Of a stretch of DNA of 64,000 nucleotides, positions 35,495-64,000 are shown in pieces. Source of the DNA: a virus; IMG/VR virus record IMGVR_UViG_3300043256_000236, positions 58,945-122,944 of that record; one strand, written 5' to 3'. Within the stretch, counting starts at the first letter, position 1; the number at the start of each line of letters is the position of its first letter. The notes under the pieces are model-generated. The model saw nothing but the letters and a program-made list of their open reading frames with translations, made no database searches and was not told where the DNA came from. The position numbers and the translations under genes are program-made.

Positions 35495-36124
35495 TCACCC
35501 TCTCGTTGGAGTTGTTAATGCCTTATTAATTGACCAATGACCCCTAACGAGTCGCTCTCGTATAGTCCTTTTGTTAATACCGGTTTCTTCTGCCCAAGCC
35601 GAGATGCATTGCGTTTTTTTGTTAAACGTAATCATATAATTACTACGTTTATTTCTGCTATTTTCTTTGGGTGTTGTCCATCGACAATTTTCTTTACAAT
35701 AATTTCCATCGTTGTCGATTCTATCTATCTGCAAACCAATTGGGACTTCACCCATATCATCTAAGAAATTCTTAAATTTTTTCCATCGATCACAGATAAT
35801 GATCCCTCTGCCACCATAATTCTTCCAATGCTGATCATTTTGGTTGGTACATCTTTGTATAATGCTTGACCATACATTGTAAGTTTTTCTTGTTCTACCA
35901 GCATCGTTTTTTGTATGGCCGTGTTTAACATTGTTACCTTTTCTACGTAGACATCCGCAGCTTTTAGTATTACCTCTTTTCAAACTATTCCCACAAATTA
36001 TCTTTTCATTGCCACAATCACATTTACACAGCCATTCATAATGACCATCACTACTTTTCCCTGTCGGCTTAATCACGACTAATTTATTAAATTTCTTACC
36101 AGTTAGATCTATAAAATTTGACAT
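35495..36124 (-). CDS. HNH/AP2-type homing endonuclease
   Basis: 209 residues inserted among sugar genes. The N-terminal third has CKCDCGN and SCGCLRRKGN, a zinc site. The nuclease part, SSIIQRCTNQNDQHWKNYGG followed by RGIIICDRWKKFKNFLDDMG and the IDRIDNDGNYCKENCRW block, is the well-known phage HNH type, and the C-terminus (AEETGINKRTIRERL) is a helix-turn-helix. Its weak ribosome site and the way it separates two sugar genes that otherwise abut indicate an inserted mobile gene. Confidence 0.82.
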   Translation of the reverse strand: MSNFIDLTGKKFNKLVVIKPTGKSSDGHYEWLCKCDCGNEKIICGNSLKRGNTKSCGCLRRKGNNVKHGHTKNDAGRTRKTYNVWSSIIQRCTNQNDQHWKNYGGRGIIICDRWKKFKNFLDDMGEVPIGLQIDRIDNDGNYCKENCRWTTPKENSRNKRSNYMITFNKKTQCISAWAEETGINKRTIRERLVRGHWSINKALTTPTRG

Positions 36125-36130
36125 AATATA

Positions 36131-36868
36131 TCATCTTAAAGTATGACCATCTCTAGTATATATTGTCACACCATTTCTATCAATGACCCTATTGACGTTT
36201 AGATGATCCATCAACATATTGAGGTGATATTGCATACGTTTATTCCTGTGATTAAAATAGTTTTGATCTCTAATTGGCATATGCCCAGTGACTATACCAG
36301 GAGTATACACAATATTCAACTTCCCTAAAGCACGACAAAAAAACGGAATATGATCACATGTCTTGAACAAAGCACTCCATCCACCAATTCCCCTGATCTT
36401 TTCTGTTCTACCCATCCAGAACTGAAGAACAATATCCCATAGATCAAAGTTTCTTAGTCGACTGCGCGGATTTGGCTTAAAAATAAGCGCATTGTCTTCT
36501 ATGTGGAGTGAACTTTGATACTGGGGGTGGCCATCAACTTGTCCTCCTACAATGTCGATTTCTGTATTGTTTTCGAGAATTTCCAACCATTTTGATAATT
36601 GTGTCCTGTCATTAAAAATAAAATCATCATCAAGAGTTACTACATACGGCGTATCAACCTTACTAAGTGCAAGATTACGGCCAGCCGAAACACCACTATC
36701 GTACGGCATTAATAGATGTTCTGCTCCTGTAATAGAATGTGGTTTAGCACTGTCATCTGCTACAATTATTCTAATATCAGGATACATCATTCTGATGCTA
36801 TAAATCAGCCTATCTACACATCTAGGTCGTTCAAATGTTTTGACTATCAGAGTTACTTTGTCTCGCAT
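36131..36868 (-). CDS. Glycosyltransferase family 2
   Basis: 245 residues starting inside the end of the polymerase N-half gene (ribosome site GAGGTG). VTLIVKTFERPRCVDRLIYS is the GT2 opening; IRIIVADDSAKP and TPYVVTLDDDFIFND carry the acidic metal-binding residues (DDD). GIGGWSALFKTCDH and FHNRNKRMQ-like regions follow in the acceptor half. Sixteen bases overlap with dnaE N-half, so the sugar island and the polymerase gene are one transcription unit. Confidence 0.82.
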   Translation of the reverse strand: MRDKVTLIVKTFERPRCVDRLIYSIRMMYPDIRIIVADDSAKPHSITGAEHLLMPYDSGVSAGRNLALSKVDTPYVVTLDDDFIFNDRTQLSKWLEILENNTEIDIVGGQVDGHPQYQSSLHIEDNALIFKPNPRSRLRNFDLWDIVLQFWMGRTEKIRGIGGWSALFKTCDHIPFFCRALGKLNIVYTPGIVTGHMPIRDQNYFNHRNKRMQYHLNMLMDHLNVNRVIDRNGVTIYTRDGHTLR

Positions 36869-40546: not shown

Positions 40547-40939
40547 TTAGTCGTTCTTCCCTCGGTTACCACAGTGTTCGTACCACGCCTTGACACGTGG
40601 AGTTACGTCGTCCAGGTCATCTCTACCACACTCCTGGAAGTGCATAATAGCATTAGCGTTAAACACAACCGCTGCTAAGTGATCTTCATCAGACTCACCA
40701 CGCTCAAAGGATGCTATGTGCCGTTTCATACTAGCGAGAAACCGGCTATATGGCATCCCCTTAGCCCAATTCCATTCATCATACTTTTTTGCGCCACTGC
40801 TGTAGTGTAATGCCGTTCGTTGTTCGGCGAGTGGAGGGATGAGGTCAAACCTTGGTTTTCCATCGTCTGTATCTCGAACAGCACCGCCATCAAACTTCTG
40901 TCGTTCACCAGAATCCTTAATATCAAACTGCTTAGCCAT
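40547..40939 (-). CDS. dATP/dGTP diphosphohydrolase-like protein (DUF5664-type)
   Basis: 130 residues from ATG 40939 (GGAG ribosome site; ATG 40945 is too close). The order GKPRFDLIPPLAEQRTALHY, SGAKKYDEWNWAKGMPYSRF, MKRHIASFERGE and HLAAVVFNANAIMHF matches the phage family annotated as dATP/dGTP diphosphohydrolase N-terminal domain, an all-helical MazG-like fold. It would adjust dNTP pools. In 2-aminoadenine phages related enzymes act with PurZ, but no PurZ-type gene is in the window. Confidence 0.75.
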   Translation of the reverse strand: MAKQFDIKDSGERQKFDGGAVRDTDDGKPRFDLIPPLAEQRTALHYSSGAKKYDEWNWAKGMPYSRFLASMKRHIASFERGESDEDHLAAVVFNANAIMHFQECGRDDLDDVTPRVKAWYEHCGNRGKND

Positions 40940-42098
40940 TTCCATTCTCCATTACATAACCGTCAGAAAAAACCTCAGATCTAGATGTCTGTTGTAAAAT
41001 AGGACCAATCTTACTCGCTATGTCACTTGGTAACATATCTCCAATATCACCTTCTGTATCGGGTGTCACACAAAATACCCTAAAATAGTGTTGGAAATCT
41101 TCCTTGATTCTATCCATTGCTGTCTGTCCGGCTTTATCGTTATCGAACGTACATATAACAGTCAATGCTCCAGCATTTTGAAGCATCAAACGTTGTTGTT
41201 TAGATATACTTAATCCAAGCAATGCTACGCTGTTTCTAATACCAGCAGCCTCGTAAGCCCAGACATCCCCTGGCCCTTCACACAATATTGCTGTACCAGT
41301 TTTCCCTATGAATGGCTTCGCGTACCAAGAGTTATATAAACACAATCCCCCTCGCAACCCCTTTGAGTGTTTCCATTTGGTATACACAGCACTGTATTCA
41401 GAATCTGGACACGATGTTCTATCCGGATGATGGTGCAAACCACAGTCATCACATTTATTATATATACTTCTACCAGACCATCCTACAACATATCTGCCAG
41501 TAATATCTAATATGGGGAAAAATGCCCTTTTGTACATCTGTTTCCCTTTGATATTACAAAAAGATATATGATACTTAGCTATTATCTCTGGTGATACACC
41601 TCTATTCGGATAATAAACCTGATCAGCCTGGAGCTTAGACACTACCGTTGACAATGGTAATCCATTATTTATCTTGGTGACGATGCTTTTTCTCTTGTGC
41701 AGTTTTATTACTTTAGATATCTCTATATCCTGGGCAGTTGTTTCGCTTGTTCCAAACTGATCCAAACCAAGAGCTTGAGCTACGAATTTTACTGATTGAT
41801 GAAACTCCCATTTCTTTCCTGTCTTGCGACTCATAGTCCCTCGCACTAGACCAAAAATACTATTTGAAGGACCTGTCAACGGATCGCGGTGGCACCCCCT
41901 TGTTTTGCACTCAAAATGGTTAGATTGTAATGCCCAGAACAAGCCCCTGTCATTATCACCATCATGAATAGGGCAAGCACTTTGAATATAGTCGTGCCGT
42001 TCAGTAAATTCTACACCCATAGCATCAAAGATTTCACAAACTCTTTCACAAGCCCTGGCTTGAATAAACTCTACTTGACTCGCATTGAATCTTTGCAC
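40932..42098 (-). CDS. DnaG-type DNA primase (zinc finger plus TOPRIM)
   Basis: 388 residues from GTG 42098 (AAGGA ribosome site). Zinc-binding region: SACPIHDGDNDRG, then HFECKTRGCH. TOPRIM: AILCEGPGDVWAYEAAG, with the catalytic Glu, and VICTFDNDKAGQTAMDRI, the DxD. The RNA-polymerase-like region between has VVGWSGRSIYNKCDDCG. Shorter than host DnaG because the helicase-binding C-domain is missing. It makes RNA primers and lies next to its helicase. Confidence 0.88.
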   Translation of the reverse strand: MQRFNASQVEFIQARACERVCEIFDAMGVEFTERHDYIQSACPIHDGDNDRGLFWALQSNHFECKTRGCHRDPLTGPSNSIFGLVRGTMSRKTGKKWEFHQSVKFVAQALGLDQFGTSETTAQDIEISKVIKLHKRKSIVTKINNGLPLSTVVSKLQADQVYYPNRGVSPEIIAKYHISFCNIKGKQMYKRAFFPILDITGRYVVGWSGRSIYNKCDDCGLHHHPDRTSCPDSEYSAVYTKWKHSKGLRGGLCLYNSWYAKPFIGKTGTAILCEGPGDVWAYEAAGIRNSVALLGLSISKQQRLMLQNAGALTVICTFDNDKAGQTAMDRIKEDFQHYFRVFCVTPDTEGDIGDMLPSDIASKIGPILQQTSRSEVFSDGYVMENGNG

Positions 42099-42100
42099 TG

Positions 42101-43540
42101 CTATGATTCCTTAGCTTTATTTTCTAAAGAAGACTTAACTACGGCAGAAAATGTTTGTCCTTCTATGAACTTGCCTACCTCAAGCTTCTCTACCACGTTT
42201 ATATATTCACCACTTTCCATACCAGCTCCAAATCTAGTATCTGTTACCACCAACTTCTTTGTACCATTTATTGGGGGATCTTCGTTTAGTTCGGTTTGTG
42301 TTTTCTTTTTCAATATAGTAAAATTGGAACATAACCACGCAATCCTGTCAGAACCCGACACTACCTCTGACCCTTCTTTTTCTATCCCGTCTCTATTAAG
42401 TTGAACAGTAGCCAATACTGGTAGTTTGAATTTAACGGCAAAGTTGTGTAGTGCCGTCACAAGAAAACCAAGCAATTGATACTCCTGTAACCCCTTCTTC
42501 AAACCACCATCATCCATGAGTTTAAGATAATCATATATAATTAGACACGGTTTTGCTGCGCCGCTGTGTGTAAATCCAACCTTCTTTGATAACCATCTTC
42601 TTGCTATGGACATGATCGCATGCGGAGCTAAGCCCGCTACCGAAAAATGATCTATGGACAGACCTTCTATCTTATCTTGACAACTCCATAATGCTTCCTC
42701 TTCTTGCTTGTTGTGCTTAAAACTTCCAGTCTCTATGCGATTCAAATCTATGCCTGACACTAAAGATGATAGGCGGTGCAACTGGATGTCGCTTGTTAAC
42801 TCTGTGTCTAAATACAATACTGGAATTCCATGCTCTGCTATATTACATGCTACGTTGATGCAGAAAAAACTTTTTCCAATTTTAGTTCTAGCACCTACAA
42901 CATTTACGGTAGCAGGTCTCAATCCTCCTCCGATTGCATTATCCCAAGCGGGAAACCCTGTCGGCAAGCCTACTATGTCCTGTGGTGTCTCTGCCAGGGC
43001 TTTCATCACACTATCGAATTGTTGCCCAAGAGATACAACGGTAGCACCCTGATCCATAATCTGTCCTGTGAATCCAAAGATAGGTTCCTCTATCTGTCCA
43101 ATTATATCGTCGACATCTTCTGCCCCTGTGATTTTCTTTAGATTGTTCTGAACAGCAACCGCTGCCATATATCCTTGTCTTGCTATGGATAGCTTGTATA
43201 CAGCTATCACTAATGATCTAATATTATCTTTAGATGATTCATTCTCTCCTATTATCGCCTCTAGGTATTCAGTGTGTTTCCCGTCATTTACGAAATTGTC
43301 GCAATTAAGAATTTTTGCTGCTGCTTGAATACTAGGAATATCAAAAGTCTTAGCATCATCATGACTAACAAGATGGGAAAGTATTTTGAATAACTCTTGA
43401 TTGATTGGCCAATAAAAATCCTTCACACCAATAAGGTCTTCAACTTCGAAAAAACAATCGGTGCCATATGTGGTTATACCAGAAAGTATAGCACGCTCCA
43501 TACCTGCATCTTGTAATATAGCATTTGATTTACTTTTCAT
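42101..43540 (-). CDS. DnaB-type replicative helicase
   Basis: 479 residues from ATG 43540 (TGATG overlap; TTG 43543 is not preferred). The N-terminal helical domain has ERAILSGITTYGTDCFFEVE. RecA-like motor: VVGARTKIGKSFF (Walker A), VLYLDTELTS, LIIYDYLKLMDDG (Walker B) and LKLPVLATVQLNR, as in DnaB H4. SDRIAWLCSNFTILKK is a late conserved part. Forms a hexamer that unwinds the fork with the adjacent primase. Confidence 0.92.
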   Translation of the reverse strand: MKSKSNAILQDAGMERAILSGITTYGTDCFFEVEDLIGVKDFYWPINQELFKILSHLVSHDDAKTFDIPSIQAAAKILNCDNFVNDGKHTEYLEAIIGENESSKDNIRSLVIAVYKLSIARQGYMAAVAVQNNLKKITGAEDVDDIIGQIEEPIFGFTGQIMDQGATVVSLGQQFDSVMKALAETPQDIVGLPTGFPAWDNAIGGGLRPATVNVVGARTKIGKSFFCINVACNIAEHGIPVLYLDTELTSDIQLHRLSSLVSGIDLNRIETGSFKHNKQEEEALWSCQDKIEGLSIDHFSVAGLAPHAIMSIARRWLSKKVGFTHSGAAKPCLIIYDYLKLMDDGGLKKGLQEYQLLGFLVTALHNFAVKFKLPVLATVQLNRDGIEKEGSEVVSGSDRIAWLCSNFTILKKKTQTELNEDPPINGTKKLVVTDTRFGAGMESGEYINVVEKLEVGKFIEGQTFSAVVKSSLENKAKES

Positions 43541-44112
43541 CAAACAAATCTACTCTTTGTACCCATTAGACATTTCTTACATTTTTGACCCATTTCTCCA
43601 CCAGGTCTATTAGATTGGAACATACTATCACATTCACTACACTCAACATCATAGCTATTTATTTGTGGTCGCTTTACTTGGATAGTTTTAGTTTTCTCAG
43701 CTAAAATCTTGTTCTTCTCTATCTCAATTGGATCTGGATTATTTGTAATAAAACGGACTCCATCAGTTTGTTTCTGTACCGCAGTCTTCCTTCTTGAATC
43801 AATATCTGGAGGACTACCTTCTTCATCTTTATTTACTGATTTAGATTTTTTAGATGTCTTTTTTCTACTAACCTTTTTCTTTAAGGCTTTTGGTGGTTTT
43901 GTGGTTGGTGTTTGTTGCAGCTCAAGAACATTGGATAACATATCTGCAACCTGACGCAATGCAGCTTCCGCATCTTGAATTGTTAACTTAGCAATGAACG
44001 CTTTTGCCGAAGGTACACTTAAAGTTTCTCCGGTAAGTCGCTCATACCCCTCACAAACTATATCCCAGTTTCCTGTGCGAATACCTTCTGCTATATACTC
44101 AATAGGACTCAT
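43540..44112 (-). CDS. Hypothetical protein with C-terminal zinc ribbon
   Basis: 190 residues from ATG 44112 (TGATG overlap; GGGGAG ribosome site). Not recognised. Parts seen: an N-terminal helical stretch, a long Lys-rich linker with KKKVSRKKTSKKSK, and a C-terminal CSECDSMF ... CKKC zinc ribbon. The Lys-rich linker and knuckle suggest nucleic-acid binding. It lies directly upstream of the helicase gene, so a replisome accessory is a reasonable guess. Confidence 0.6.
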   Translation of the reverse strand: MSPIEYIAEGIRTGNWDIVCEGYERLTGETLSVPSAKAFIAKLTIQDAEAALRQVADMLSNVLELQQTPTTKPPKALKKKVSRKKTSKKSKSVNKDEEGSPPDIDSRRKTAVQKQTDGVRFITNNPDPIEIEKNKILAEKTKTIQVKRPQINSYDVECSECDSMFQSNRPGGEMGQKCKKCLMGTKSRFV

Positions 44113-44878: not shown

Positions 44879-45400
44879 TTATGGGTTAATTCCCATCATT
44901 ATACAATGAATGTATTCAAGCTCGTCCGAGATAAGACCTTTATCCTTAGGTATCCACCTAACTACTTCTATGTCTTGATTTTCCAACATATCCTTTACGA
45001 CCTGATTGACATCTTCCAGTTTTGCATCAGTATATAATCCACTTTGTGATGTAGTAATAGGTCCATACACTACTCGCTTAATACCCTTCTGAATAATATG
45101 AGCCCAACAGTGAGTACATGGAGGTCCACTCACATACAAAGTAGCATCTTCCAAATCTCCAGTAGAATTTAGTATTGCATTTTCTTCTGAATGCAATATA
45201 GGAGGATATTTTTCTGGTCGCATCTGTGGCATCTTATCATCATTGACACCCCTAGGGTAACCGTTATATCCTTGGCCAACTATACATCCACGACTATTTA
45301 TAATAACACAACCACATTGGGTACTTGTATCTGGACTTCGTGTCTTAGCCCAAATAGCTTGTACCATAAAATAGTCGTCCCAGCAAAGTCTAGTTCTCAC
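44879..45400 (-). CDS. Deoxycytidylate deaminase
   Basis: 173 residues from GTG 45400 (ribosome site AAGGAGG eight bases upstream). An earlier in-frame ATG would read through that ribosome site and is unlikely. HSEENAI is the HxE zinc site and GPPCTHCWAHI the PCxxC zinc site; QCGCVIINSRGCIVGQGYNG is typical of dCMP deaminases. It supplies dUMP for the ThyX encoded at 60449. Confidence 0.9.
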   Translation of the reverse strand: MRTRLCWDDYFMVQAIWAKTRSPDTSTQCGCVIINSRGCIVGQGYNGYPRGVNDDKMPQMRPEKYPPILHSEENAILNSTGDLEDATLYVSGPPCTHCWAHIIQKGIKRVVYGPITTSQSGLYTDAKLEDVNQVVKDMLENQDIEVVRWIPKDKGLISDELEYIHCIMMGINP

Positions 45401-46451
45401 TATTATTGTCCTCCTTAGGTAGAACCACATCTCTAACTTCTTTTTCCAATAATTGTAATTTATCAGGGTTGTCTCTAAGAAAATTGGATAACCTTGCCAA
45501 TCCCTGGAACTTCGGTGGATCACCATCATCTGCGAACATAGGTAATGAGTACCAAGATCCAGCCTTCTCTATTAATCCAAGATTTTCCGCAGTAGTCACA
45601 ATATCCCTTATAACATCAATACCAAAACCATATCTCAATGGTAATATGCACGGAAGAAGAGGTCTGCCAAGCGCAGATGACTGTACAGTAATATGCATGT
45701 CGTGACCGTCAGAAGTATTGGTTTCTGCGTTGCGTTCCCATTGTTGTGTCCACGTTACCTTCAACCACACAGAACACGCATATTGTATAGCCACCCCGCC
45801 CTTCTCTACAAATTTTGGACCACGTGGTTCCCTACTGGTCATTAGCTGGGATATAAAAATCAGTATTACATTTTTTGAATCAACGATTTGTTGGGCACGT
45901 CTAAAGAATGCAGACAACAACTTGGCTGGTCCAGCCATGTCTCTACTAGAACCAATGTCGTCCTCTTGTTCTGTCATGGTTGATAAAGCAGCAATGCTAT
46001 CAATGACAACAACTGCCTTCTCTTGGGTCTTGGCGATCCGTTCTATAATGTTTAGGTAGTCTTCTGCTGTCAATGGCTTGTCTATATGATGAGGAATGAC
46101 CTTGAGCTTAGCTGGATCTAGACCGTGGATAGTGGACAATAACGCAGGAGTACATCTTCGCTCTATATTTATATAGTAGGTTGGTCTGTTAAGTTCTTGT
46201 GCATTTCTGAGCAATTCTAAACATAATGTAGTTTTTCCAGACTTTGCTTTTCCGGTTATCAAACAAATCGTTCCATCAGGGATCCCACCGTTTAGGGCAA
46301 TGTCTAGCGACAACGGGGTGTGAAGAATATCTCTGGTACATGGAGGCAAAGCCTTTTCTGCCGTGGCTATAATACCATGGCCATGTATTCTAATCAAAAA
46401 CTCATCCAAGGATTCATCTGCAATCTTTGCTTTTGTTTTTGTCTTAGCCAT
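45390..46451 (-). CDS. recA: RecA-type recombinase
   Basis: 353 residues from ATG 46451. Walker A: ITGKAKSGKTTLCLELL; the Glu after strand 3 is in YYINIERRCTP; Walker B: AVVVIDSIAALSTMTE with LMTSREPRG and GGVAIQYACSVWLKV as the L1-L2 area. The L2 loop has KFVEKGG, similar to but shorter than in host RecA. Strand exchange for recombination-dependent replication. Shares eleven bases with the dCMP deaminase start. Confidence 0.9.
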   Translation of the reverse strand: MAKTKTKAKIADESLDEFLIRIHGHGIIATAEKALPPCTRDILHTPLSLDIALNGGIPDGTICLITGKAKSGKTTLCLELLRNAQELNRPTYYINIERRCTPALLSTIHGLDPAKLKVIPHHIDKPLTAEDYLNIIERIAKTQEKAVVVIDSIAALSTMTEQEDDIGSSRDMAGPAKLLSAFFRRAQQIVDSKNVILIFISQLMTSREPRGPKFVEKGGVAIQYACSVWLKVTWTQQWERNAETNTSDGHDMHITVQSSALGRPLLPCILPLRYGFGIDVIRDIVTTAENLGLIEKAGSWYSLPMFADDGDPPKFQGLARLSNFLRDNPDKLQLLEKEVRDVVLPKEDNNSEN

Positions 46452-46914
46452 TCTCTTCATCTCTTATCTTAGCAAGTGCAGTTTTTCTTCCTGTATCAAC
46501 AAACGTAGCGTTCTTTTTGTTGTCTATTTCGGTGTGTTGCTGTCTTTTGGATAATTCTAAACGTTGTGCAGTCAAAGATTCTACACGGTTATTCGTCCAC
46601 CGCACTATCGTTGCTATTGTCTTCTTGGCAACAAGCGCTTTTATATTGCGTTCTCGGATTATCTCTACCAAAGCTCTCCGTAATAGGGCGTCAGAAAGAT
46701 TCAATTCTTTTCCTAGGTTGGTTACTCCTCTTATTTCTCTCCCATACTTAGGTCCCCAATATTTCTTATCAGACCAAAATCGTGGACCAATCTTTGGATT
46801 AACATTCATACACACCAATTCTATTATGTAGTCTCTGAATGTGACATATAATCCAGGCGTAGTAGGAGAAAGGTAAGGATGTTTTTCGCTTTTTGGTTGA
46901 TGCCTTATTGCCAT
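46444..46914 (-). CDS. Hypothetical protein
   Basis: 156 residues, TAATG overlap with the upstream gene. The segment VTNLGKELNLSDALLRRALV looks like a winged-helix or helix-turn-helix. Rich in Arg/Lys at the C-terminus. Probably a DNA-binding regulator or a recombination accessory because it is immediately upstream of recA. Not recognised. Confidence 0.5.
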   Translation of the reverse strand: MAIRHQPKSEKHPYLSPTTPGLYVTFRDYIIELVCMNVNPKIGPRFWSDKKYWGPKYGREIRGVTNLGKELNLSDALLRRALVEIIRERNIKALVAKKTIATIVRWTNNRVESLTAQRLELSKRQQHTEIDNKKNATFVDTGRKTALAKIRDEENG

Positions 46915-51419: not shown

Positions 51420-51941
51420 TTAAGAATATGCCCACGACCTTTTTCCTTTTATATCAGAAATTGTCATCCGAGTAACACCAAATATATCTGCTATTTGTCT
51501 TTGTAAAAGATTGCCCTGTAATAATAATCGTCTTATTTCCGAGACCTGCTCTAGAGTCAGTTTCGATCTTCCATTCCTTTGGCCCCTGTTGGTTCTGCGA
51601 TGACGTATTTTATCTTCTTCGTTTTCTTTCCTTGTACCCCAAGACAAATTAGATCGACAATTGTTCTGTTTATTTCCATCAAAGTGTCTTACTTCATGTT
51701 TTATGGTTGGAGGATCACCAATAAACGCATAAGCTACCAAACGATGTACTCGGTGGTATCTCCTATCGCAATTCACTCTTAAATCTACCATATTATAACC
51801 ATTAGAAATACGTGGTTTCAGTATCTTTTTGGTTTGTTTTCGTCTAACATATCCTATATCAGATACTTCATAATACCCTTCATATCCAACAACTGGTTTC
51901 CAGTATTCTTTAATCACCTTGAAGTCTTTCTGTGATACCAT
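51420..51941 (-). CDS. HNH homing endonuclease (NUMOD4-HNH-HTH)
   Basis: 173 residues from ATG 51941, inside the 3' end of the phosphoesterase gene; a start at 51968 is also in frame. NUMOD4: EYWKPVVGYEGYYEVSDIG; HNH: HRLVAYAFIG then VRHFDGNKQNNCRSNLSWG; C-terminal helix-turn-helix: SEIRRLLLQGNLLQRQIADIF. Canonical phage homing endonuclease. The overlap with the phosphoesterase end means it inserted at a gene boundary without loss of the host gene. Confidence 0.85.
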   Translation of the reverse strand: MVSQKDFKVIKEYWKPVVGYEGYYEVSDIGYVRRKQTKKILKPRISNGYNMVDLRVNCDRRYHRVHRLVAYAFIGDPPTIKHEVRHFDGNKQNNCRSNLSWGTRKENEEDKIRHRRTNRGQRNGRSKLTLEQVSEIRRLLLQGNLLQRQIADIFGVTRMTISDIKGKRSWAYS

Positions 51942-53100
51942 CTCTCTTAAGATAATATCCACGGTCAAAGAACGGAAAGAACTCAGGGGAAAATTTCGTT
52001 ATGCTACCCTTAATGTCCTGCTGTAAAGTTACAATACAAAATCCTACATGAGCTGCAAGCTTTCGTTTACGCATGAATAAAGTTTGGTCTTGCATTGTCC
52101 CTGCTTGTAAACAATGAATGTTTCTAACGTAACAATATTCCATTTTATGATAATGTCCTATTATGCATACTGCTGGTTTTTCCCCTCCTGTAAAACTTTC
52201 TGCCAATTTTTGAGAAGAGTATGAAAGAGCATATGAACTACCCCCGCCAGCATGAATAACTTTTATAATAGCTGATCCATGTGGCGCCTTTAATTCAAAA
52301 TCCGACTCCATATATCCCAGATAGACTAGATCTTCTCGGCCTTGAGCCCTTGCTTCTAACATCAAATAACGACCAAACTCGATTCCTTCTCGTTGGTGCC
52401 ACCACCCACAATGGTCATCTCCATCTACGTAATATGTTTTAATTCCTGGTTTTGAAGGCCAGTGATCTATCGCGTATTGACATTGATCTGCGATACCGTG
52501 AGCTAGTAATTCGTGAGTATTGAATCTACATTCTCCATCTACATAATTTCCTGGGCATAGAACTGTTGTTATCCCCCTTCTTTCGAATTCGTCATAAGCA
52601 GCATTAAGTACATCTAGTCGTTCAGCCTTACTGCATAGATGCATATCTGCAATGACACCGAATGATATTGGTTTTCCGTAGTTATGATTTGCCATTATAA
52701 TCTTTGGACAAGATTGTTCCACCGATTTACCAAGTTGAATTGTGCTGCCACGTCGCATTATAATGTAACCGCGCTCTTCCATATCATTAATTACAGCAAG
52801 CACATCCTCCTCTGTTGAATGCATCTTCTCAGCAACCTTGGCGGGTGTAATCGCTTTCTTTATGCGTCTAGCAACTTCTGATCTAAACAAAGGATCACTT
52901 GGATCAATTCCCACAATAGGTACACCTGATAATATTGTTTCTGCCTGGGTGATAAGCTTCCGAGCCTTCCATACGGAAACACCTAAAGTACTCGCCACTT
53001 CTTCCCTTAATGTACCAGTACTCCCAGCCTTATTGTGAGATCTAATAAGTTGAATAACTTCCTGCACCTCTGCGCTCAATTGCGGCTTTTCTTTAGCCAT
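51910..53100 (-). CDS. Winged-helix plus metallophosphoesterase protein
   Basis: 396 residues, ribosome site GGTGGAAG. Residues 1-115 are helical DNA-binding-like segments (LREEVASTLGVSVWKARKLI, then a second HTH-like stretch). From about residue 147 a calcineurin-like phosphoesterase: ADMHLCSK (Asp152, His154), CPGNYVDGE, VDGDDHCG, VIHAGGGS and IIGHYHKMEY. The usual GD...GNH order is altered: Asn185 occupies the usual Asp position and Asp228 the usual Asn position. Likely a DNA nuclease or phosphatase targeted by the N-terminal domain. Confidence 0.75.
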   Translation of the reverse strand: MAKEKPQLSAEVQEVIQLIRSHNKAGSTGTLREEVASTLGVSVWKARKLITQAETILSGVPIVGIDPSDPLFRSEVARRIKKAITPAKVAEKMHSTEEDVLAVINDMEERGYIIMRRGSTIQLGKSVEQSCPKIIMANHNYGKPISFGVIADMHLCSKAERLDVLNAAYDEFERRGITTVLCPGNYVDGECRFNTHELLAHGIADQCQYAIDHWPSKPGIKTYYVDGDDHCGWWHQREGIEFGRYLMLEARAQGREDLVYLGYMESDFELKAPHGSAIIKVIHAGGGSSYALSYSSQKLAESFTGGEKPAVCIIGHYHKMEYCYVRNIHCLQAGTMQDQTLFMRKRKLAAHVGFCIVTLQQDIKGSITKFSPEFFPFFDRGYYLKRDGITERLQGD

Positions 53101-53102
53101 AT

Positions 53103-56027
53103 CTAACTTCCACCTTTCGTTGTATCACATTTACCGCTTGGACAATCATTAACCGCAGCTTCTTCCGCCATGTCATCCAAGTGTTTTTTAGCCTCAGATA
53201 TAGGCATAGGAACCAGAGGACTCTCTCCCTTACTTCCATCCCTATACACGGTTATTCCCTTGAGTTTTACTATATGTTTTCTCAAATCCTTTGACAACTG
53301 TTCTACTGGATAATCTGCTGGTAAATTTATTGTTTTAGAGATAGAGTTGTCTATATGTTTCTGGCAAGCTACCTGCATTACAAGATGCGCTTCTGGTGAG
53401 ATATCATGAGCACCCTGAAAATGTTTAGTAGACCTATGCGTTCGTATGAATTTTTTCAACAATGGATGAACAACAACTTCAGTAACACCATCCCTTTTAC
53501 TGTCATCATGCATATTTTTATGTATGTTAAAGCGTCTCTCATATACCGGTTGAAACAATGGTTCAATACCGGATGAACAACCAGCAACGATGGATGTTGT
53601 CCCAGTCGGCGCAATACAGAGTAAAGCACAGTTTCTGATACCATGTTCTTTAATTAATCTCCGATGATTGCGAGTTAAATGTTTCCTAGCAAAACCAGTT
53701 TTGATATGCTGTTCTGCATCAAAAGAATGGAATGGTCCCTTTTCTATTGCAATTCTTATGCTAGCGTGATAAGCCTGTTTTTTTATGCAGTTCATCACCT
53801 TATCAATCAGATCCCTAGATTCTTGACTAGAATATTTTATACCTAGTTCAAGCAACATGTCATGAAGTCCCATCACTCCCAAGCCAATTCGACGATGTTT
53901 TTGAGATGTTTCTTCTATCAGAGGCAGTGGATAATTATTTTGATCTAACACGTTGTCTAGGAAACGAACACTTAGAGAAACTGTTTCTTCTAACATATCT
54001 AGGTCAATCTCATTATCAACGACATGAGTGTGTAAATTTATAGCTCCTAAACAGCAGCATCCATATTCTTCCAAAGTGACCTCACCGCAATTTCCAACAA
54101 CCAGTCCATTAACTATTAAGGAATGTGTATCAGGTTCATTAAGACAGTAAACATCTTCTACTCCATCCTTAACTATAGATTTGATTTTAGTGATAAATCT
54201 TTCTGGCTTACGACATTTCCTTCCCCTTTGATCCAATAATTCAGTAAGTTGTTTTTGTTTATTTCCAGCGAAAGCAATAAGTTTCTCAAAAGTAATAGAA
54301 TTAGGCCTATTTATAATCAATTCGTATTGTGTTTTGCACAGATAGGGTTTGTGCCCACCATGACCATCGGGCAAATTGCGGTATTGTTCATCTCTTCTCT
54401 TATGGATACTGGATATTATTCCAAAATTGTTGAGAAGAATTTGTACATCCTGTAATAACGGAAGATTACTTTGGGAAAGTCTAACAGAAAGGGAACCTTT
54501 GGTTCCACGATCTTTGAGTTGAACAGAACCATCTGCTTGAAACAATCCAGCCAGATAACCCTTTACTAATTCTCGTGACCCTCTCCAAACTAATTCTGGA
54601 ACACGATTTTTGAATGTTCTGATGTTCTCATCAAATTCTTCAGAAAAGTATCTAGATAATCTTATCGACGCAATACGTTTTTTATCCGGTTCCAAACAAC
54701 TCCTAACAGTTACGAATCCATATTCCTTTTTAGTCTTAGTAAATTTTTTATTATTTATTTTTCCATTAACTATACACAGCGTTTGGTCGCATAATTCATC
54801 TTCACTCCAGTAATCTAAACACATTATAACATCTTTGTCGGATCTAATTGTTGTCCCATCTCCAGTAAATGATCCGATTATCAATCCATCTCCATAATCA
54901 CCGATATCTCCCCAGATACCTTCTCCAGATTGTAAATTAAGTTCATGGCCTTCAGATAATACTTTTAATGGCCTACGGCCTAGTTGTGTTATAAATTCAT
55001 GATATTCAGTACATCTTATCGTATGTCCATGTGATGTGGTTACTTTATAAATTTGCTGCTGTTTCCCCGTCATTTTCACAGGACTTGCTTGTCGAACTTT
55101 AATACCGCGTAAAATAGAATTTACACATCTATTATCTGTAGATACGTGATTATTCCCGCCAGATTCAAATAACTCACCAAAAGATATAATCCCACGATCT
55201 GTATGAAGTCGCATTTCCTTTGTAAAACAAGGATTAGTTGAGGAGAACTCTCCACCACTGGCATAAGCTAATGTATTTTGTTCATCTATAAAACCCTTAT
55301 TCAGAAAACCAGGATCTCCACCCTTCCACGCATTTTGTATAATCTTATCCCAGACTTCCTTAGCAGGAATCCTACCACGTTCTTCCCCTTGCCACTTAAA
55401 GACTATCTCTCCTTGGTCGTCAAGCAACTTAAAAAACTCATTATCAACCAATACGGAAATATTAGCATTAGTTAATTCTTTGTTATCAAGTTTCGCTTCC
55501 AAAAATTCAAGCAGGTCTGGGTGGTCATAATTCAAACAGAATAAAAGAGCGGATCTGCGCCCCCCACCTTCTCGCAACTCATTACAGACACCATTGACGG
55601 CCCTCATCAGACTGACAGAACCAGTAGCTTCTCCACCAGTCCCTCTAATCTTCGTGCCTCTAGGTCTAATTTTGGAAAAGTTAATGCCGACTCCACCACC
55701 CGTTCCGGAAATGATTGTTACATTACGGAGGACATCTCCCCACCCTTCTCGACTGTCCTCTGCGGGAATACAGAAACAGTTTAAAAGCTGACCACGAGGA
55801 CGCCCTGCTCCTCTCCATATCCTACCACCCGGAGAAAAACGATTGGTTTGCAATATCTCAATGAATCTAGCGAAGTACTCATCCCTCTTTGTTCCAAGTT
55901 CTGCATCAGCTATATTCCTGGAGACCCTTTCACAAGCCTGAGAGAATGTCTCCTCTTCATGAATAGCATATCTATCCTTAAAGATCTGTAAAGCGAACCC
56001 CTGTGGTTCATACATCTCTGTGCTCAC
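53103..56027 (-). CDS. nrdJ: Ribonucleotide reductase, class II-like, interrupted by an intein
   Basis: 974 residues from GTG 56027 (GAGGAG ribosome site). Without the 380-residue intein, 594 residues remain. GQLLNCFCIPAEDS carries the first redox cysteine, STNPCGEVTLEEYG the thiyl-radical cysteine and adjacent Glu, and APTGTTSIVAGCSSGIEPLF a diagnostic loop. The tail holds CPSGKC, like the C-terminal redox pair of adenosylcobalamin-dependent NrdJ. No small subunit or activase gene is in the window, which fits class II. Short for the family and without an N-terminal ATP-cone. Confidence 0.85.
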   Translation of the reverse strand: MSTEMYEPQGFALQIFKDRYAIHEEETFSQACERVSRNIADAELGTKRDEYFARFIEILQTNRFSPGGRIWRGAGRPRGQLLNCFCIPAEDSREGWGDVLRNVTIISGTGGGVGINFSKIRPRGTKIRGTGGEATGSVSLMRAVNGVCNELREGGGRRSALLFCLNYDHPDLLEFLEAKLDNKELTNANISVLVDNEFFKLLDDQGEIVFKWQGEERGRIPAKEVWDKIIQNAWKGGDPGFLNKGFIDEQNTLAYASGGEFSSTNPCFTKEMRLHTDRGIISFGELFESGGNNHVSTDNRCVNSILRGIKVRQASPVKMTGKQQQIYKVTTSHGHTIRCTEYHEFITQLGRRPLKVLSEGHELNLQSGEGIWGDIGDYGDGLIIGSFTGDGTTIRSDKDVIMCLDYWSEDELCDQTLCIVNGKINNKKFTKTKKEYGFVTVRSCLEPDKKRIASIRLSRYFSEEFDENIRTFKNRVPELVWRGSRELVKGYLAGLFQADGSVQLKDRGTKGSLSVRLSQSNLPLLQDVQILLNNFGIISSIHKRRDEQYRNLPDGHGGHKPYLCKTQYELIINRPNSITFEKLIAFAGNKQKQLTELLDQRGRKCRKPERFITKIKSIVKDGVEDVYCLNEPDTHSLIVNGLVVGNCGEVTLEEYGCCCLGAINLHTHVVDNEIDLDMLEETVSLSVRFLDNVLDQNNYPLPLIEETSQKHRRIGLGVMGLHDMLLELGIKYSSQESRDLIDKVMNCIKKQAYHASIRIAIEKGPFHSFDAEQHIKTGFARKHLTRNHRRLIKEHGIRNCALLCIAPTGTTSIVAGCSSGIEPLFQPVYERRFNIHKNMHDDSKRDGVTEVVVHPLLKKFIRTHRSTKHFQGAHDISPEAHLVMQVACQKHIDNSISKTINLPADYPVEQLSKDLRKHIVKLKGITVYRDGSKGESPLVPMPISEAKKHLDDMAEEAAVNDCPSGKCDTTKGGS
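54090..55229 (-). mobile_element. Intein with LAGLIDADG endonuclease in the RNR active site
   Basis: 380 residues from Cys (after TNP) to Asn (before CGE). Block A CFTKEMRLHTDRG; a block B-like TEYHEF; LAGLIDADG motifs LIIGSFTGDGT and LAGLFQADGSV; block F DVYCLNEPDTHSLIVNG and block G LVVGN then Cys+1. The penultimate residue is Gly rather than the usual His. Junctions CCT|TGT and AAT|TGC verified on the DNA. The Cys+1 is the catalytic cysteine of RNR, so the enzyme can only work after splicing. Confidence 0.92.
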
Positions 56028-58365: not shown

Positions 58366-58878
58366 TTATCCCACCTTTATTGTAAATTTATGTTTCATTT
58401 TATTAATAGCCCTTGTTTTAATACGATAAACTGTAGACGGCACAATGCCATGAGAAGAAGCGACCTCTCTGGTAGTCTTGTGCTCAAAAAATAACTCTGC
58501 AATAATGCTTGTCTCTTCTTCATTTAGACACGCCAAACATTCCTGTATGGTCATCCCAGAATCTAAATCCCCACAAAGTCCAGCAAAATTAGACATACGT
58601 TCATGAGATATGCTCTGTGCTCGTTTTGCTCTTAATTCCGCATCCCTCATGTGTCTGAATGTACCCAATAATCTAGAATACAAAAAGGTGATAAACGAAC
58701 CACCTCCACAGTAACATATCATACATTTCAAAAGTTCATCATCAGCACGAGCTTTTAACTCATCCGAATGAGCTGAATCTACCCCTACGGATGTGGATAA
58801 CTGTACAACTAATGGAGCATACTTGATTCTGGCTCGATGGAAATACTCCTTAGTAACACGACGATTTACTTGCAACAT
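58366..58878 (-). CDS. Second sigma-70-like factor
   Basis: 170 residues from ATG 58878 (TGATG overlap with clpP; ribosome site GGAG). Residues about 8-90 are region 2-like, helical with YFHRARIKYAPLVVQLS and FLYSRLLGTFRHMRDAELR; the C-terminus is a region 4-type helix-turn-helix, LNEEETSIIAELFFEHKTTREVA then HGIVPSTVYRIKTRAINKMK. This region 4 is clearer than in the factor at 23808. Two sigma-like genes in one phage suggest separate promoter classes. Confidence 0.6.
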   Translation of the reverse strand: MLQVNRRVTKEYFHRARIKYAPLVVQLSTSVGVDSAHSDELKARADDELLKCMICYCGGGSFITFLYSRLLGTFRHMRDAELRAKRAQSISHERMSNFAGLCGDLDSGMTIQECLACLNEEETSIIAELFFEHKTTREVASSHGIVPSTVYRIKTRAINKMKHKFTIKVG

Positions 58879-59510
58879 CAACGAGACTCCATATAAATCT
58901 TCCGTTCCATAGTCGGTGTCCATAACCCGTCTATAATTCCCATACGCGTAGCTGTCTTTGGGGACATCCACTTAGTTTCTTCCATCATAGATAGTAATTG
59001 TTTGTTTGTCAACTTAGTCCTCCTAGCCATTGCCTTCATTTTCTCTAAATAGTCGTCATTGACATATTTTATCATAGAGTTGTGCTTGTCCAGAGACTCC
59101 ATACCGCTTTGTATAATGACAGAATGCAACATCATAGATGAGTTGGGTGTTGCATATCTTTTACCCTTGGTTCCGAATATAGAAATTATAGCACCCATAG
59201 AATGGGCTTGCCCACGGACTATTGTGTAAACTGGGCCACGACACGACAACATCTGATCTATGATAGCATAACCAGAGGCCAAACAACCACCGGGACTATT
59301 AATATACATATATATTGGATCTTTAGTCAAAGAAAATAGCTGTAAATAATTACATATATTAACTGATGACATTTCATCAATCAAGCCCACTACCAAGATA
59401 CGACGAGTTCTCGTCAAAAATTCTTCAACGATAGGATCCACCTGTATTGGTATTGACATTTCTAGCCCGTCGCCACATTTACATACCCTGTGCTTTGGAT
59501 TAAATTGCAT
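58878..59510 (-). CDS. clpP: ClpP-like serine protease
   Basis: 210 residues, ribosome site GGAGGG. ClpP fold: YINSPGGCLASGYAIID, the catalytic Ser104 in GQAHSMGAI and His129 in SSMMLHS. The usual third-residue region (rDxWms-x-EA) reads EETKWMSPKTATRMGIID, so the Asp is not clearly conserved. In phages ClpP-like proteases often mature capsids, but here it lies beside a sigma-like gene and integrase and could be a regulatory protease. Its N-terminal CKCGDG is unusual for ClpP. Confidence 0.85.
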   Translation of the reverse strand: MQFNPKHRVCKCGDGLEMSIPIQVDPIVEEFLTRTRRILVVGLIDEMSSVNICNYLQLFSLTKDPIYMYINSPGGCLASGYAIIDQMLSCRGPVYTIVRGQAHSMGAIISIFGTKGKRYATPNSSMMLHSVIIQSGMESLDKHNSMIKYVNDDYLEKMKAMARRTKLTNKQLLSMMEETKWMSPKTATRMGIIDGLWTPTMERKIYMESR

Positions 59511-60384
59511 CTTTCCCTCCGAAAGGATGGCACTTCTTGTGTAAGATTTGTAGTCTATTAAAATCAGTTGTCAAATAGCTCTGAGTAGTAGCAAGATGCT
59601 CATGGCCTAGGAGTGTCTGAATACATTCAAGGTCCATGCCATTACGCATTAACGTTGTAGCGCAAGTTCTCCTTAACATATGAGGAGTCACGTGCTGAAC
59701 TCCAGCTCGGCGAGCAGACGACGTAAGCATGTCCGAAACAGCTCTTCGAGTAAGACGATTGCCATCTGTTTTGACGAACATTGCCTTTCGGGACGAGGCC
59801 CTTTCTAAATTAACGTAATCCTGAATCTTCTTAACACACTCTTCTGTAGTAGGAACGATCCTGTCTACACAACCTTTACCAGATACTCGCATCTCTCGCT
59901 TCTTTATATTAATATCCTGTAGATTAAGACTACACAGCTCTGATACTCTCAACCCGCTATGATACAGCGTCAATATAATAGCGACATTCCTGCGAACGTT
60001 AGATGTTCCATATGAGGGCATACTATTTTTAGCAAATGAAACAAGACTATCCACAACCTTAGATTCCACCGCATCTATAGTTCTCCTTTCCACGCGAATC
60101 GAATTCATAATAGACAGTAAGTTATCATCTAATAGACCAATACTAGTCAAGTGATGACACAAACAACGAATAGACATATATTTGCGACGTACGGTTGTAT
60201 CTATTAGGTTGCTCGATTGTAATCTTTGAATAAAATCTTCAATTAACTCAATAGTAATAGTTTGCTTATCAGCAAAGACCATAAATTCCGATACATCCCT
60301 AGTATAAGCTTCGATCGTTGCATCAGCCAGGCCAAGTTCCACCTTCATATACGTGTTAAACTTTTCCCACACTAAGATCGACAT
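59500..60384 (-). CDS. Tyrosine recombinase (XerC/D-like)
   Basis: 294 residues, ribosome site AAAGGA. N-terminal SAM-like domain, then catalytic Arg146 in YHSGLRVSEL, Lys170 in VSGKG, the His235-x-x-Arg238 pair in TPHMLRRTCATTLM, His261 in LGHEHLATTQSYL and Tyr270. All active-site residues are present. It could integrate a prophage or resolve dimers of a linear or circular genome. No attachment site was recognised nearby. Confidence 0.9.
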   Translation of the reverse strand: MSILVWEKFNTYMKVELGLADATIEAYTRDVSEFMVFADKQTITIELIEDFIQRLQSSNLIDTTVRRKYMSIRCLCHHLTSIGLLDDNLLSIMNSIRVERRTIDAVESKVVDSLVSFAKNSMPSYGTSNVRRNVAIILTLYHSGLRVSELCSLNLQDINIKKREMRVSGKGCVDRIVPTTEECVKKIQDYVNLERASSRKAMFVKTDGNRLTRRAVSDMLTSSARRAGVQHVTPHMLRRTCATTLMRNGMDLECIQTLLGHEHLATTQSYLTTDFNRLQILHKKCHPFGGKDAI

Positions 60385-60448: not shown

Positions 60449-61276
60449 TTATACTCTTTTATATTCAGATTCTACTCCGTTTGTTCCATCTTCAAGTGTG
60501 ACTATATTAAATCCGTGTGCAAAAAGTGGAGCTTTATCTTGTAGAATACGACACATTTTGACAGCTAATTTCCGTATCTCAACATCTGCAAACTTACTAC
60601 CTCTTAACTCTATAAAATGACGCACAGCTCTAGCATTCATAGTCACGAATATCTTAGTTTCAGTTGCGTTAGGGAGTACTGATCTCGCAGCTTGTCGAGC
60701 CTTTTTGCGGCGCTCTAACCCACTTTCGATATCCTTATACATATCCGATAACTTAGTTGTCAGATCTTCATATAGTTGACGGGATTTCTCACAATGTTCT
60801 ATCCATGTCCGATATGTATCTGGGTCAGACTTTGCTAACTCCTGAATTGCCGGAGGTACAACAAACGCGACACTCGATGAATCTACATACCTTTGACTTA
60901 ACTGTGAAAAAGATGCGATCCGATGACGAACCAATTCATGAGTCAGACTACGAGAAGCATTCCATATAATAAAATTGAAAACAGCATGTTCTATTGCCGC
61001 TCCATGACCTACTTCAATCAAATGCTTTATGTGTTCGTCATGAGTCCTACCCTTTGGTTTTTCGCCTTCTTTGGCCCATGATTGGTAACAATTCCTCCCG
61101 GCCATCTCTACCAACCATTCTCCATCTTTATCACCTAAAGAAATCATAGAATCAAGTTGATCTGTAAATTCTGGCCAAACATAATTATGATCATCTAAAA
61201 ATTCCTTAACTCCTTCAATTTCTATAATTACCTTTCCTACTAAAGCTATCTTTGGTTCTGTCACGAAATTATTCAT
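60449..61276 (-). CDS. thyX: Flavin-dependent thymidylate synthase
   Basis: 275 residues from ATG 61276 (AAGGAG ribosome site, ATGA overlap with the upstream stop); an upstream in-frame start would add 35 unusual residues. RHRIASFSQLSQRY is the ThyX signature. Also LVEMAGRNCYQSWAKEG and FVTMNARAVRHFIELRG. Makes dTMP from dUMP using methylenetetrahydrofolate and FAD; the dUMP can come from the dCMP deaminase at 44879. Confidence 0.95.
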   Translation of the reverse strand: MNNFVTEPKIALVGKVIIEIEGVKEFLDDHNYVWPEFTDQLDSMISLGDKDGEWLVEMAGRNCYQSWAKEGEKPKGRTHDEHIKHLIEVGHGAAIEHAVFNFIIWNASRSLTHELVRHRIASFSQLSQRYVDSSSVAFVVPPAIQELAKSDPDTYRTWIEHCEKSRQLYEDLTTKLSDMYKDIESGLERRKKARQAARSVLPNATETKIFVTMNARAVRHFIELRGSKFADVEIRKLAVKMCRILQDKAPLFAHGFNIVTLEDGTNGVESEYKRV

Positions 61277-61836
61277 ACCTTTTCTCCTTGTTTGACTATC
61301 ATCCAACAATTGCCGTCTACTACAGGTTTCAACCCATTCGATTGAGCAAAAGCATCGACGACACCACTGACTGATCCCCAAGTATAATCATGACCCCCTA
61401 GAATTCCTCCGCATTTAATCTTTGGCCACCACGCTTCTATATCCCTCTTAACATCTTTCGCAACATGGGAAGCATCTATGAAACAAAAATCAACACTTGT
61501 GTCGCGAAACATGGCGGAGGACTCAGCGCTGTCTTCTTTGTGAATATTAAATTGTCCCAACAGGTTCAATCTCTTCATATTCTCTTTGAAAACTTCCAAC
61601 ATATTTCTTGATCGTTGAGCTTTAGTAGCTGGATCACTAAGACAACCGCCAATACAATTATCTACCGCATGATACTCATTATTATTGCGGATACATATAG
61701 GGACCATCACCGCAGTGCTCTTACCTGCGAAAAAACCCAACTCTACCACGATGCCATTTGTTATCTTATTACATATAGCTGAAACGAACCTCGCATCATT
61801 GGGGGCGAACCATCCTTCAATTTGATCCCACCTCAT
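61273..61836 (-). CDS. SAM-dependent methyltransferase (Methyltransf_24-like)
   Basis: 187 residues, ribosome site GGAATG. IVVELGFFAGKSTAVMV is motif I; VDFCFIDASHVAKDVKRD the catalytic Asp region, and GGILGGHDYTWGSVSG the motif VI-like part. Resembles the TylF/cephalosporin-hydroxylase-type methyltransferases of sugar clusters. It lies apart from the sugar island, next to thyX. Confidence 0.75.
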   Translation of the reverse strand: MRWDQIEGWFAPNDARFVSAICNKITNGIVVELGFFAGKSTAVMVPICIRNNNEYHAVDNCIGGCLSDPATKAQRSRNMLEVFKENMKRLNLLGQFNIHKEDSAESSAMFRDTSVDFCFIDASHVAKDVKRDIEAWWPKIKCGGILGGHDYTWGSVSGVVDAFAQSNGLKPVVDGNCWMIVKQGEKV

Positions 61837-62265: not shown

Positions 62266-62541
62266 CTACCCCATCTTTTCATGACGTTCTTCTTCTTTTA
62301 TTCTACCTATCTCTCCTTCAACAAAAATATCTTCACTACAATGATTGGTAAAATCTTCACACTCATTACACAAATACATATTATAGATTTCATTGATACC
62401 TATAACTTTATGAATAGTGAACTCGCATCCGATAGGGAACGATATACAACAACCGAAACACTTATGGGGCTTCCTTGTCTTAGCAATATGGATTATTCTC
62501 AATGTATAACAATCTCTTGGTGATGTCTTAAGTTTTTTCAT
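62266..62541 (-). CDS. Small zinc-binding hypothetical protein
   Basis: 91 residues from ATG 62541 (AAGGAG ribosome site lying inside the end of the BrxL-like gene; a start at 62574 is unlikely). CFGCCISFPIGC and LCNECEDFTNHC make a two-knuckle zinc protein. Its start overlaps the BrxL-like coding region by 14 bases. Confidence 0.6.
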   Translation of the reverse strand: MKKLKTSPRDCYTLRIIHIAKTRKPHKCFGCCISFPIGCEFTIHKVIGINEIYNMYLCNECEDFTNHCSEDIFVEGEIGRIKEEERHEKMG

Positions 62542-63997
62542 GACACTCCTTAATCTTATAAGACAAATCAACACCCTTAAACTCTGCTGGTGCTATAATA
62601 GCCAATTGGTCGACAACACGACCCCGTAGATCAACCGCAACATCTAACACGGTCGTTAATTCCTGATTAGTAACAGTCTCCGGTGTTCTGTGAGGAAACA
62701 TCAGCTTCAACAGCCCAGACCCAATCCTGACTAACGATCGCTGGTTACGTTGAGACATGTTGCCAAAACAAACATTATCTAGAATAACTGGCGCATAATT
62801 CCGATTTCTCATTCTATGCATAATCTCACTTAAATAATCAGCCATGAAACCAACCGTCTTCGCAAGATTAGACTCCCGTATTTGTGGAATTCTCCATCCG
62901 GCTATAAACCCATGAATGCGGTCTAAAAACGCGCGATCTCTATTGACTGCTTGTGGTAGTGGTGCAAATAGGTTTCGATATCTAGCTGCTACTTCCTTTT
63001 TCTCTCTATCACAAGCAATGTTACCAGCGAAGACTAGAGAACATCCTGACGCAAATTCTGCAGTACCACGACTTATCCTGCCACTGTTCATATAGTCTTT
63101 GAGCATGTCGACAAGATCGCCTTGTCCAGACCATTTATTGCCACCATTATCGCTAGCAAATTCGTCGAACATAACAACATCCCTGTACCCAATTATTCCC
63201 AATTGACGACGTAATTTATCATAAAATAAAGAAGCAACAGTTGTTTTACCTCCAGATAAAACAAATCCATGAGAACTCAAAGACTGGTAATTGAATGTCT
63301 TACCCGTTTCAGGAGGACCAAGCTCGCATAGATTAATATTCGATTCTACAAAAGGAACCAAACGAACCATATATAACAATTTTTCATCATAAGAGAGATT
63401 ATCCGGGTCGAATCCCATACTAGTAATCATCAAATTCAACCATTCATCATCTGTAAATTGTTTTCGACGTTCAACCCATGTGTTCAAATCTATTCCCGTA
63501 ATCTGTATGGGCTTAAATTCTGTCACAATAAAAGGAAACAACTTGTTTCTTAAAACGAAAGAATTATCATATTCTATTTTGAAGACACCCCACGCGCCAG
63601 TCGTCAAAAGAACCTCCCCATACTCGGCTATGAGATACGGATCTATCCTGACATTCTGATTACCCAGAGCAGCTACGTCTACCCAATATTGGTCCCTACT
63701 CTCGTCGAACCGACACCTAATACGACCAATCAATATATGGCTACCACGCTCTCGTATATTACTCTTTACTAATTCTTTTTCATCAGAGTCCATAAAATGA
63801 TCATTAAGAAGATTCTCAATACTATCAAGTCCAGGCTTAGGATCTTTCGGATCTACCATTGATGAAATCAAATAGTCTACTACAAATGCTGGTAGCTTTC
63901 TAAATTGCTCATTCAAACAACCCAAACTCTTATCGACTATTACACCTTCTTCTGAAAAGACATCCACAATTTTTTGTTTTGTCTCTATTCCAGTCAT
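62528..63997 (-). CDS. brxL: BrxL-like AAA+ ATPase without Lon-type C-terminal domain
   Basis: 489 residues; the ATG at 63997 is three bases from the window edge, so the ribosome site is out of view. Long collinear match to the N-terminal region of BREX protein BrxL: FPFIVTEFKPIQITGID, LLYMVRLVPFVESNINLC, Walker A LGPPETGKT (227-234), VLSGGKTTVASLFYD, Walker B DVVMFDEFA (Asp278-Glu279), MLKDYMNSGRISRGTAEFAS, LVFAGNIA and LFAPLPQAV. The protein ends where BrxL continues into a Lon-like domain. BrxL is a DNA-associated ring ATPase of BREX phage defence; in a phage it might serve replication or counter-defence. Confidence 0.85.
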   Translation of the reverse strand: MTGIETKQKIVDVFSEEGVIVDKSLGCLNEQFRKLPAFVVDYLISSMVDPKDPKPGLDSIENLLNDHFMDSDEKELVKSNIRERGSHILIGRIRCRFDESRDQYWVDVAALGNQNVRIDPYLIAEYGEVLLTTGAWGVFKIEYDNSFVLRNKLFPFIVTEFKPIQITGIDLNTWVERRKQFTDDEWLNLMITSMGFDPDNLSYDEKLLYMVRLVPFVESNINLCELGPPETGKTFNYQSLSSHGFVLSGGKTTVASLFYDKLRRQLGIIGYRDVVMFDEFASDNGGNKWSGQGDLVDMLKDYMNSGRISRGTAEFASGCSLVFAGNIACDREKKEVAARYRNLFAPLPQAVNRDRAFLDRIHGFIAGWRIPQIRESNLAKTVGFMADYLSEIMHRMRNRNYAPVILDNVCFGNMSQRNQRSLVRIGSGLLKLMFPHRTPETVTNQELTTVLDVAVDLRGRVVDQLAIIAPAEFKGVDLSYKIKECHEKT

Positions 63998-64000
63998 TTT

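Follow-up and report, generated by a model that had tools for sequence, protein, structure and literature searches.

BrxL is required for phage restriction by the BREX systems of E. coli and Acinetobacter (PMC12839542, PMC10164562). In the Acinetobacter protein, the N-terminal and AAA+ domains assemble the ring and make all DNA contacts, the ATPase is stimulated about 8-fold by dsDNA, and the C-terminal domain only pairs two rings, tail to tail; DNA unwinding has not been demonstrated even for BREX BrxL (PMC10164562). The N-terminus of BrxL is described as sigma-HTH-like, and the BrxL of type-4 BREX has no Lon domain (PMC12839542). The latter was confirmed here on two loci from gut contigs, MT835963 and MT835511, whose BrxLs are 474 and 503 aa long, with PAPS-reductase-like, PglZ-like and BrxC-like ORFs beside their genes.

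The DNA analysed here (the window) is a stretch of 64,000 nucleotides, positions 58,945 to 122,944 of the IMG/VR virus record IMGVR_UViG_3300043256_000236. At its end lies the following gene:

62528–63997, minus strand: BrxL-family AAA+ ATPase without the C-terminal domain, 489 aa (assigned by profiles, an AlphaFold2 model and Foldseek comparison with 8EMH)

The opposite (plus) strand contains 22 stops over the same positions. The ORF belongs to the BrxL family beyond doubt. It exceeds the curated cut-offs of Pfam BrxL_ATPase (6.5e-104, 347.5 bits) and BrxL_N (9.5e-26, 90.8 bits), reaches 433 bits with NCBIfam TIGR02688 against a cut-off of 329, is recognised by the PADLOC BrxL profile at 1e-127, and in a PDB sequence search matches BrxL (8EMC/8EMH) at 4e-82 over its residues 18–481. 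The profile search suggested by the initial annotation thus supports its identification of a BrxL homologue; another AAA+ family was ruled out, as the BrxL profiles dominate. The protein had also been described as collinear with BrxL from the conserved KPIQ region onwards. This holds for the AAA+ domain (aa 156–477), but the similarity begins earlier, since a BrxL_N domain (aa 17–143) is also present. At the other end, the AAA+ residues shared with BrxL run up to Y480, and the protein stops 9 residues later. A Pfam search found no Lon_C, no nuclease (HKD) domain and no Ser–Lys proteolytic domain of Lon protease in it, in agreement with the earlier statement that the Lon-like domain is absent.

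Just 3 bases separate the start of the ORF from the edge of the window, and the 122,944-base virus record ends at the same point. In a sibling record (L002, 165,526 bases), the BrxL ORF is 100% identical and the sequence runs on upstream. A stop is located there just upstream of BrxL, and an alternative TTG start adds at most five residues, so the phage protein is complete at both ends.

The Walker A motif is GPPETGKT (227–234) and the Walker B motif is DVVMFDE (273–279), with sensor N326 and R360; K233, T234, D278, E279, N326 and R360 are identical in all 30 phage homologues. E279 corresponds to E280 in the Walker B motif of 8EMC/8EMH, and the E280Q chain aligns as well. The AlphaFold2 model of the phage protein has a pLDDT of 87, and its best Foldseek match is DNA-bound BrxL (8EMH, TM 0.81), followed by MCM helicases (E about 1e-10, TM about 0.4–0.45). 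A fold related to that of MCM, in line with the remark of the initial annotation that BrxL structures are described as MCM-like, thus appears in the model, whereas no MCM match was obtained in the Pfam and PDB sequence searches, and there is no usable sequence similarity to these replicative helicases. A search of a viral structure library gave no close member of this BrxL family; its best matches (TM about 0.53) were two uncharacterised archaeal virus AAA+ proteins, SIRV9 A0A1X9SJE3 and AFV2 ORF425, which have 14–16% identity to phage BrxL and are not BrxL by sequence. Judging by its model, the phage protein would work like BrxL in fold and ATPase.

The N-terminal and AAA+ domains are common to phage BrxL and the type-1 protein of Acinetobacter NEB 394 (8EMC/8EMH). 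The latter has 679 aa and a C-terminal Lon-like domain, whereas the phage protein has 489 aa, lacks this domain, has no BREX operon and belongs to a separate clade. The domain content of the type-4 BrxLs is the same as that of phage BrxL; however, the phage gene lacks their BREX-type neighbours, and the two type-4 sequences branch far from the phage clade.

PglZ and BrxC are components common to nearly all BREX types. Neither PglZ (PF08665) nor BrxC (NF033441) was found in 22 phage records, nine of them 160–181 kb in length, while the same searches gave matches in control genomes. PglX, BrxA and BrxB were not recognised among the neighbouring ORFs. The initial annotation was right that no other BREX genes are in view, and, judged by PglZ and BrxC, phage BrxL stands outside the BREX systems. 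Its suggestion that the end of the window truncates an incomplete island fails. Beyond base 64,000, as seen in the sibling record, BrxL is preceded by three genes outside BREX: a small ORF resembling a zinc finger, one resembling a peptide deformylase, and one for an AAA+ ATPase (PF00004). A relative of 168,090 bases (G004) looks complete and circularly permuted, because its two end genes adjoin in a third contig, G003; it has no island at its flanks either. A cut BREX island is ruled out by these two records and by the absence of PglZ and BrxC noted above. The broader idea of a non-functional relic or cut island arose from the position of the ORF at the end of the window, and nothing is left in its favour: the flanks in the sibling record and complete relatives are intact without BREX, and the dN/dS of phage BrxL is well below 1, which makes its probability negligible.

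The genes of the window that characterise the phage and the surroundings of BrxL are as follows:

62266–62574, minus strand: small ORF 3' of BrxL, no assigned function (weak PHROG 16244 match)
61273–61836, minus strand: class I methyltransferase (Methyltransf_24), located beside BrxL in some relatives
60449–61276, minus strand: ThyX-like thymidylate synthase (RHR...S motif by eye; synteny)
59500–60384, minus strand: tyrosine recombinase (Phage_integrase), XerD-like
58878–59510, minus strand: ClpP-like protease
58366–58971, minus strand: sigma-70 region 4-containing protein
53103–56027, minus strand: ribonucleotide reductase (RNR) with a probable intein (by eye; 974 aa against 594 aa in G004)
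51910–53100, minus strand: clade-specific HTH/metallophosphatase-like protein, independent lineage marker (fold by eye)
45390–46460, minus strand: RecA/UvsX-like recombinase
42101–43543, minus strand: DnaB-like replicative helicase, the phage's own
40932–42098, minus strand: Toprim primase (DnaG-like)
36853–39228, minus strand: PHP and catalytic regions of DNA polymerase III alpha
24903–26771, minus strand: finger and HHH regions of DNA polymerase III alpha, encoded by a gene of their own

The record also encodes a tape measure protein, two PD-(D/E)XK nucleases and a terminase large subunit interrupted by an apparent intein. The source is a tailed phage that brings its own replisome of bacterial type. 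Among cultured phages, no close relative of it was found: the best match of its DnaB in the search for such relatives has 29% identity, the only match of the marker protein is from a haloarchaeal virus (26%), and the BrxL matches in the phage collection are of the BREX type, with at most 36% identity. The two halves of the DNA polymerase III alpha subunit are about 10 kb apart, with glycosyltransferase-like and methyltransferase-like genes between them, and this split is shared by G004. Two contigs of the lineage were binned in MAGs, L044 (Nitrosospira) and L045 (Phycisphaerales); they are likely mis-binned, although they may hint at hosts.

The terminase large subunit (L007:16632-19901) has 1089 aa against 734 aa in relatives, and its insertion looks like an intein. 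Both this long insertion and that of RNR resemble inteins with homing-endonuclease parts. In addition, many free-standing homing-endonuclease-like ORFs of 170–220 aa with the pattern DLTGKKFxxL...GNTKSCGCL are scattered through the genomes (for example, L006:6548-7180, L103:8493-9014 and 35495–36124 of the window). Several of them are inserted beside BrxL or ThyX, with BrxL still kept.

Scans of IMG/VR revealed 33 BrxL-bearing loci, 32 of which are from phages of this family. In every contig that extends far enough downstream, ThyX comes after BrxL as its nearest constant downstream neighbour in the clade, usually with ClpP, the sigma-like gene and RNR next. Where contigs reach that far, the BrxL locus is located upstream of RNR, RecA, DnaB, DnaG and PolIII. 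The independent marker was found in 29 contigs, and BrxL is present in all 16 of them that reach the locus. The remaining 13 comprise eight that stop short of the locus and five with a different gene order; BrxL may therefore be missing in more distant phages. The identity between phages is 64–71% for BrxL, 71–76% for RecA and 58–74% for DnaB, with XerD and ClpP below BrxL. The dN/dS of phage BrxL is 0.03–0.14 in close pairs with usable dS, values with dS above 1 being rough. In this lineage of tailed phages of about 160–180 kb, BrxL is a core gene, probably passed on vertically and working without BREX. The BrxL family itself is already known; its place as a core phage gene is a new setting. 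No report of a BREX-free or core phage BrxL was found in the literature searched, which covers a minority of the subscription papers and, of bioRxiv, what is deposited in PMC.

Genes for DNA metabolism share the neighbourhood with those for ClpP, the sigma-like protein and a methyltransferase, which makes a role in transcription or host takeover conceivable. In the form considered here, a BrxL ring, its zinc-binding partner (see below) and the sigma-like protein would remodel host RNA polymerase or promoter DNA. Rings of the bEBP-type AAA+ class act on transcription and offer a precedent, the sigma-70 region 4 gene and ClpP are linked to BrxL in most relatives, and the sigma-HTH-like N-terminus (PMC12839542) would also fit. 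However, in comparison with PDB structures BrxL groups with MCM and not with bEBPs, and the sigma-like gene, with 28–57% identity, is far less conserved than BrxL. We consider such a factor very unlikely.

Directly upstream of BrxL, the sibling record encodes a small putative zinc-binding protein of 84 aa (L002:9735-9989); its gene is outside the window because the virus record ends there. It is found next to BrxL in 29 of the 30 phages with upstream sequence, sometimes with a homing-endonuclease-like ORF between the two genes. Its CxxC motif is invariant and its H..C motif nearly so, and it ends in a conserved RSDALxLF-like peptide, R-[ST]-[DN]-A-L-x-[LF]. A profile of this protein detected one copy in 16 of 17 phage records with BrxL, whereas seven phage records without BrxL and three bacterial genomes with BrxL had no copy. 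The phage lacking it, L105, also has the fastest-evolving phage BrxL. In the predicted structure, the N-terminal part is modelled with confidence and resembles a zinc knuckle, a disordered linker follows, and the C-terminus forms a short helix; structure comparison yielded no significant known fold, and no Pfam or PHROG family was assigned. This protein is a candidate loader, tether or clamp-binding factor. More speculatively, its C-terminal ALxLF peptide might be beta-clamp-like.

A constant small partner, along with a methyltransferase nearby in some relatives, could also point to superinfection exclusion, in which a minimal module of BrxL and the zinc protein, perhaps with the methyltransferase, would block the replication of competing phages. 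The need for BrxL in restriction by E. coli and Acinetobacter BREX (PMC12839542, PMC10164562) is in line with this. Nevertheless, such a module would have to do without PglZ and BrxC, the methyltransferase is not constant among relatives, and phage defence genes are usually located in variable loci, whereas the BrxL locus is invariant. This possibility is distinctly unlikely.

The tree of phage and bacterial BrxL proposed by the initial annotation was built by maximum likelihood from 81 sequences, including 30 phage proteins. It is unrooted and contains several long branches; its cellular side is mainly Pseudomonadota, Planctomycetota and plasmids, with two type-4 BrxLs only. A branch that is supported at 100/100 and present in every bootstrap tree separates all 30 phage proteins from the others. 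In this unrooted tree, the phage proteins are neither nested in type-1 BrxL nor sister to the two type-4 BrxLs. The identity of phage BrxL to the cellular BrxLs compared is about 33–38%. The lack of the Lon-like domain, pointed out by the initial annotation, is real, but it is not a phage invention, because type-4 BREX BrxL shares it (PMC12839542).

These data bear on a further idea of that annotation, a dominant-negative counter-defence factor. Phage BrxL would co-assemble with or displace host BREX BrxL, or occupy the BREX complex, so that restriction is blocked. It has the same fold and an intact AAA+ interface region, mixed or capped assemblies would be defective because the ring-pairing C-terminal domain is missing, and phage-encoded BREX inhibitors such as Ocr and OrbA do exist (PMC7261183, PMC11580459). 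However, such inhibitors are patchy and fast-evolving, whereas phage BrxL is a syntenic core gene under strong purifying selection with every catalytic residue retained. Its identity to cellular BrxLs is low, nothing in its own deep clade points to a recent acquisition from host BREX, and the consistently co-encoded zinc protein is left unexplained. A BREX decoy is thus unlikely, and less likely than a DNA motor.

With moderate confidence, we favour the view that phage BrxL is an active single-ring dsDNA motor, accessory in phage replication or recombination. The protein keeps the parts with which BREX BrxL forms its ring and grips the duplex, namely the N-terminal HTH/OB region and the AAA+ domain, and lacks the part that joins two BREX BrxL rings tail to tail. 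On these grounds, it would form one ring of six or seven subunits on dsDNA. Using ATP, the ring would move along DNA or remodel it during replication or recombination; origin opening, fork restart and recombination-dependent replication are candidate tasks. The word motor here follows from the intact ATPase and the fold. The upstream zinc protein may load or tether the ring. Overall, the ring state, motor activity, replication role and partner interaction are what we infer.

The initial annotation had suggested a replication or remodelling helicase ancestor. The accessory form of the helicase idea is plausible, while the role of sole replicative helicase is unlikely, because the phage encodes its own DnaB and DnaG-like proteins. 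The motor would act alongside DnaB and not in place of it, and with DnaB present the need for an extra ring motor is not obvious. A replication origin at BrxL was also sought by GC skew, which follows gene strand and transcription and places no origin there.

BrxL is needed for restriction in several BREX systems, and a BREX-free, presumably single-ring BrxL with one constant partner would offer a simpler system for learning how this motor acts on DNA. A BrxL match in a phage genome should not be labelled anti-phage defence or Lon protease. The locus also prompts a testable hypothesis, in which a component of phage replication was taken over by a defence system. The BrxL fold would then be native to the DNA replication of phages and mobile elements as a two-gene core module, a single-ring MCM-like motor and a zinc-finger tether with a C-terminal peptide, and BREX would later have recruited the motor and added the ring-pairing domain, turning it against phage replication. 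We regard this whole scenario as tentative and rather doubtful.

Other unusual BrxLs were seen in the course of the analysis. A Lon-less BrxL of 495 aa is encoded in a BREX-like locus (L180:9466-10953, G808). It nests among long type-1 BrxLs and is an independent loss of the C-terminal domain; the Lon-less state thus arose more than once or was repeatedly lost. The Lon domain of BREX BrxL is inactive. Planctomycetota have a separate BrxL lineage (L183:8756-10852, L164 and L166) of 696–703 aa. It matches Lon_C strongly, its GPSAG serine and lysine motifs seem intact, and no BREX genes were recognised nearby; by sequence, it is possibly a real BrxL–Lon protease. The thirty-third locus of the IMG/VR scans, L107:10016-12052, is from an element of a bacterial isolate (IMG isolate record 2846856033) and encodes a BrxL of 678 aa with a C-terminal extension. 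This 86-kb record contains no PglZ or BrxC, and its BrxL is apparently another one outside BREX.
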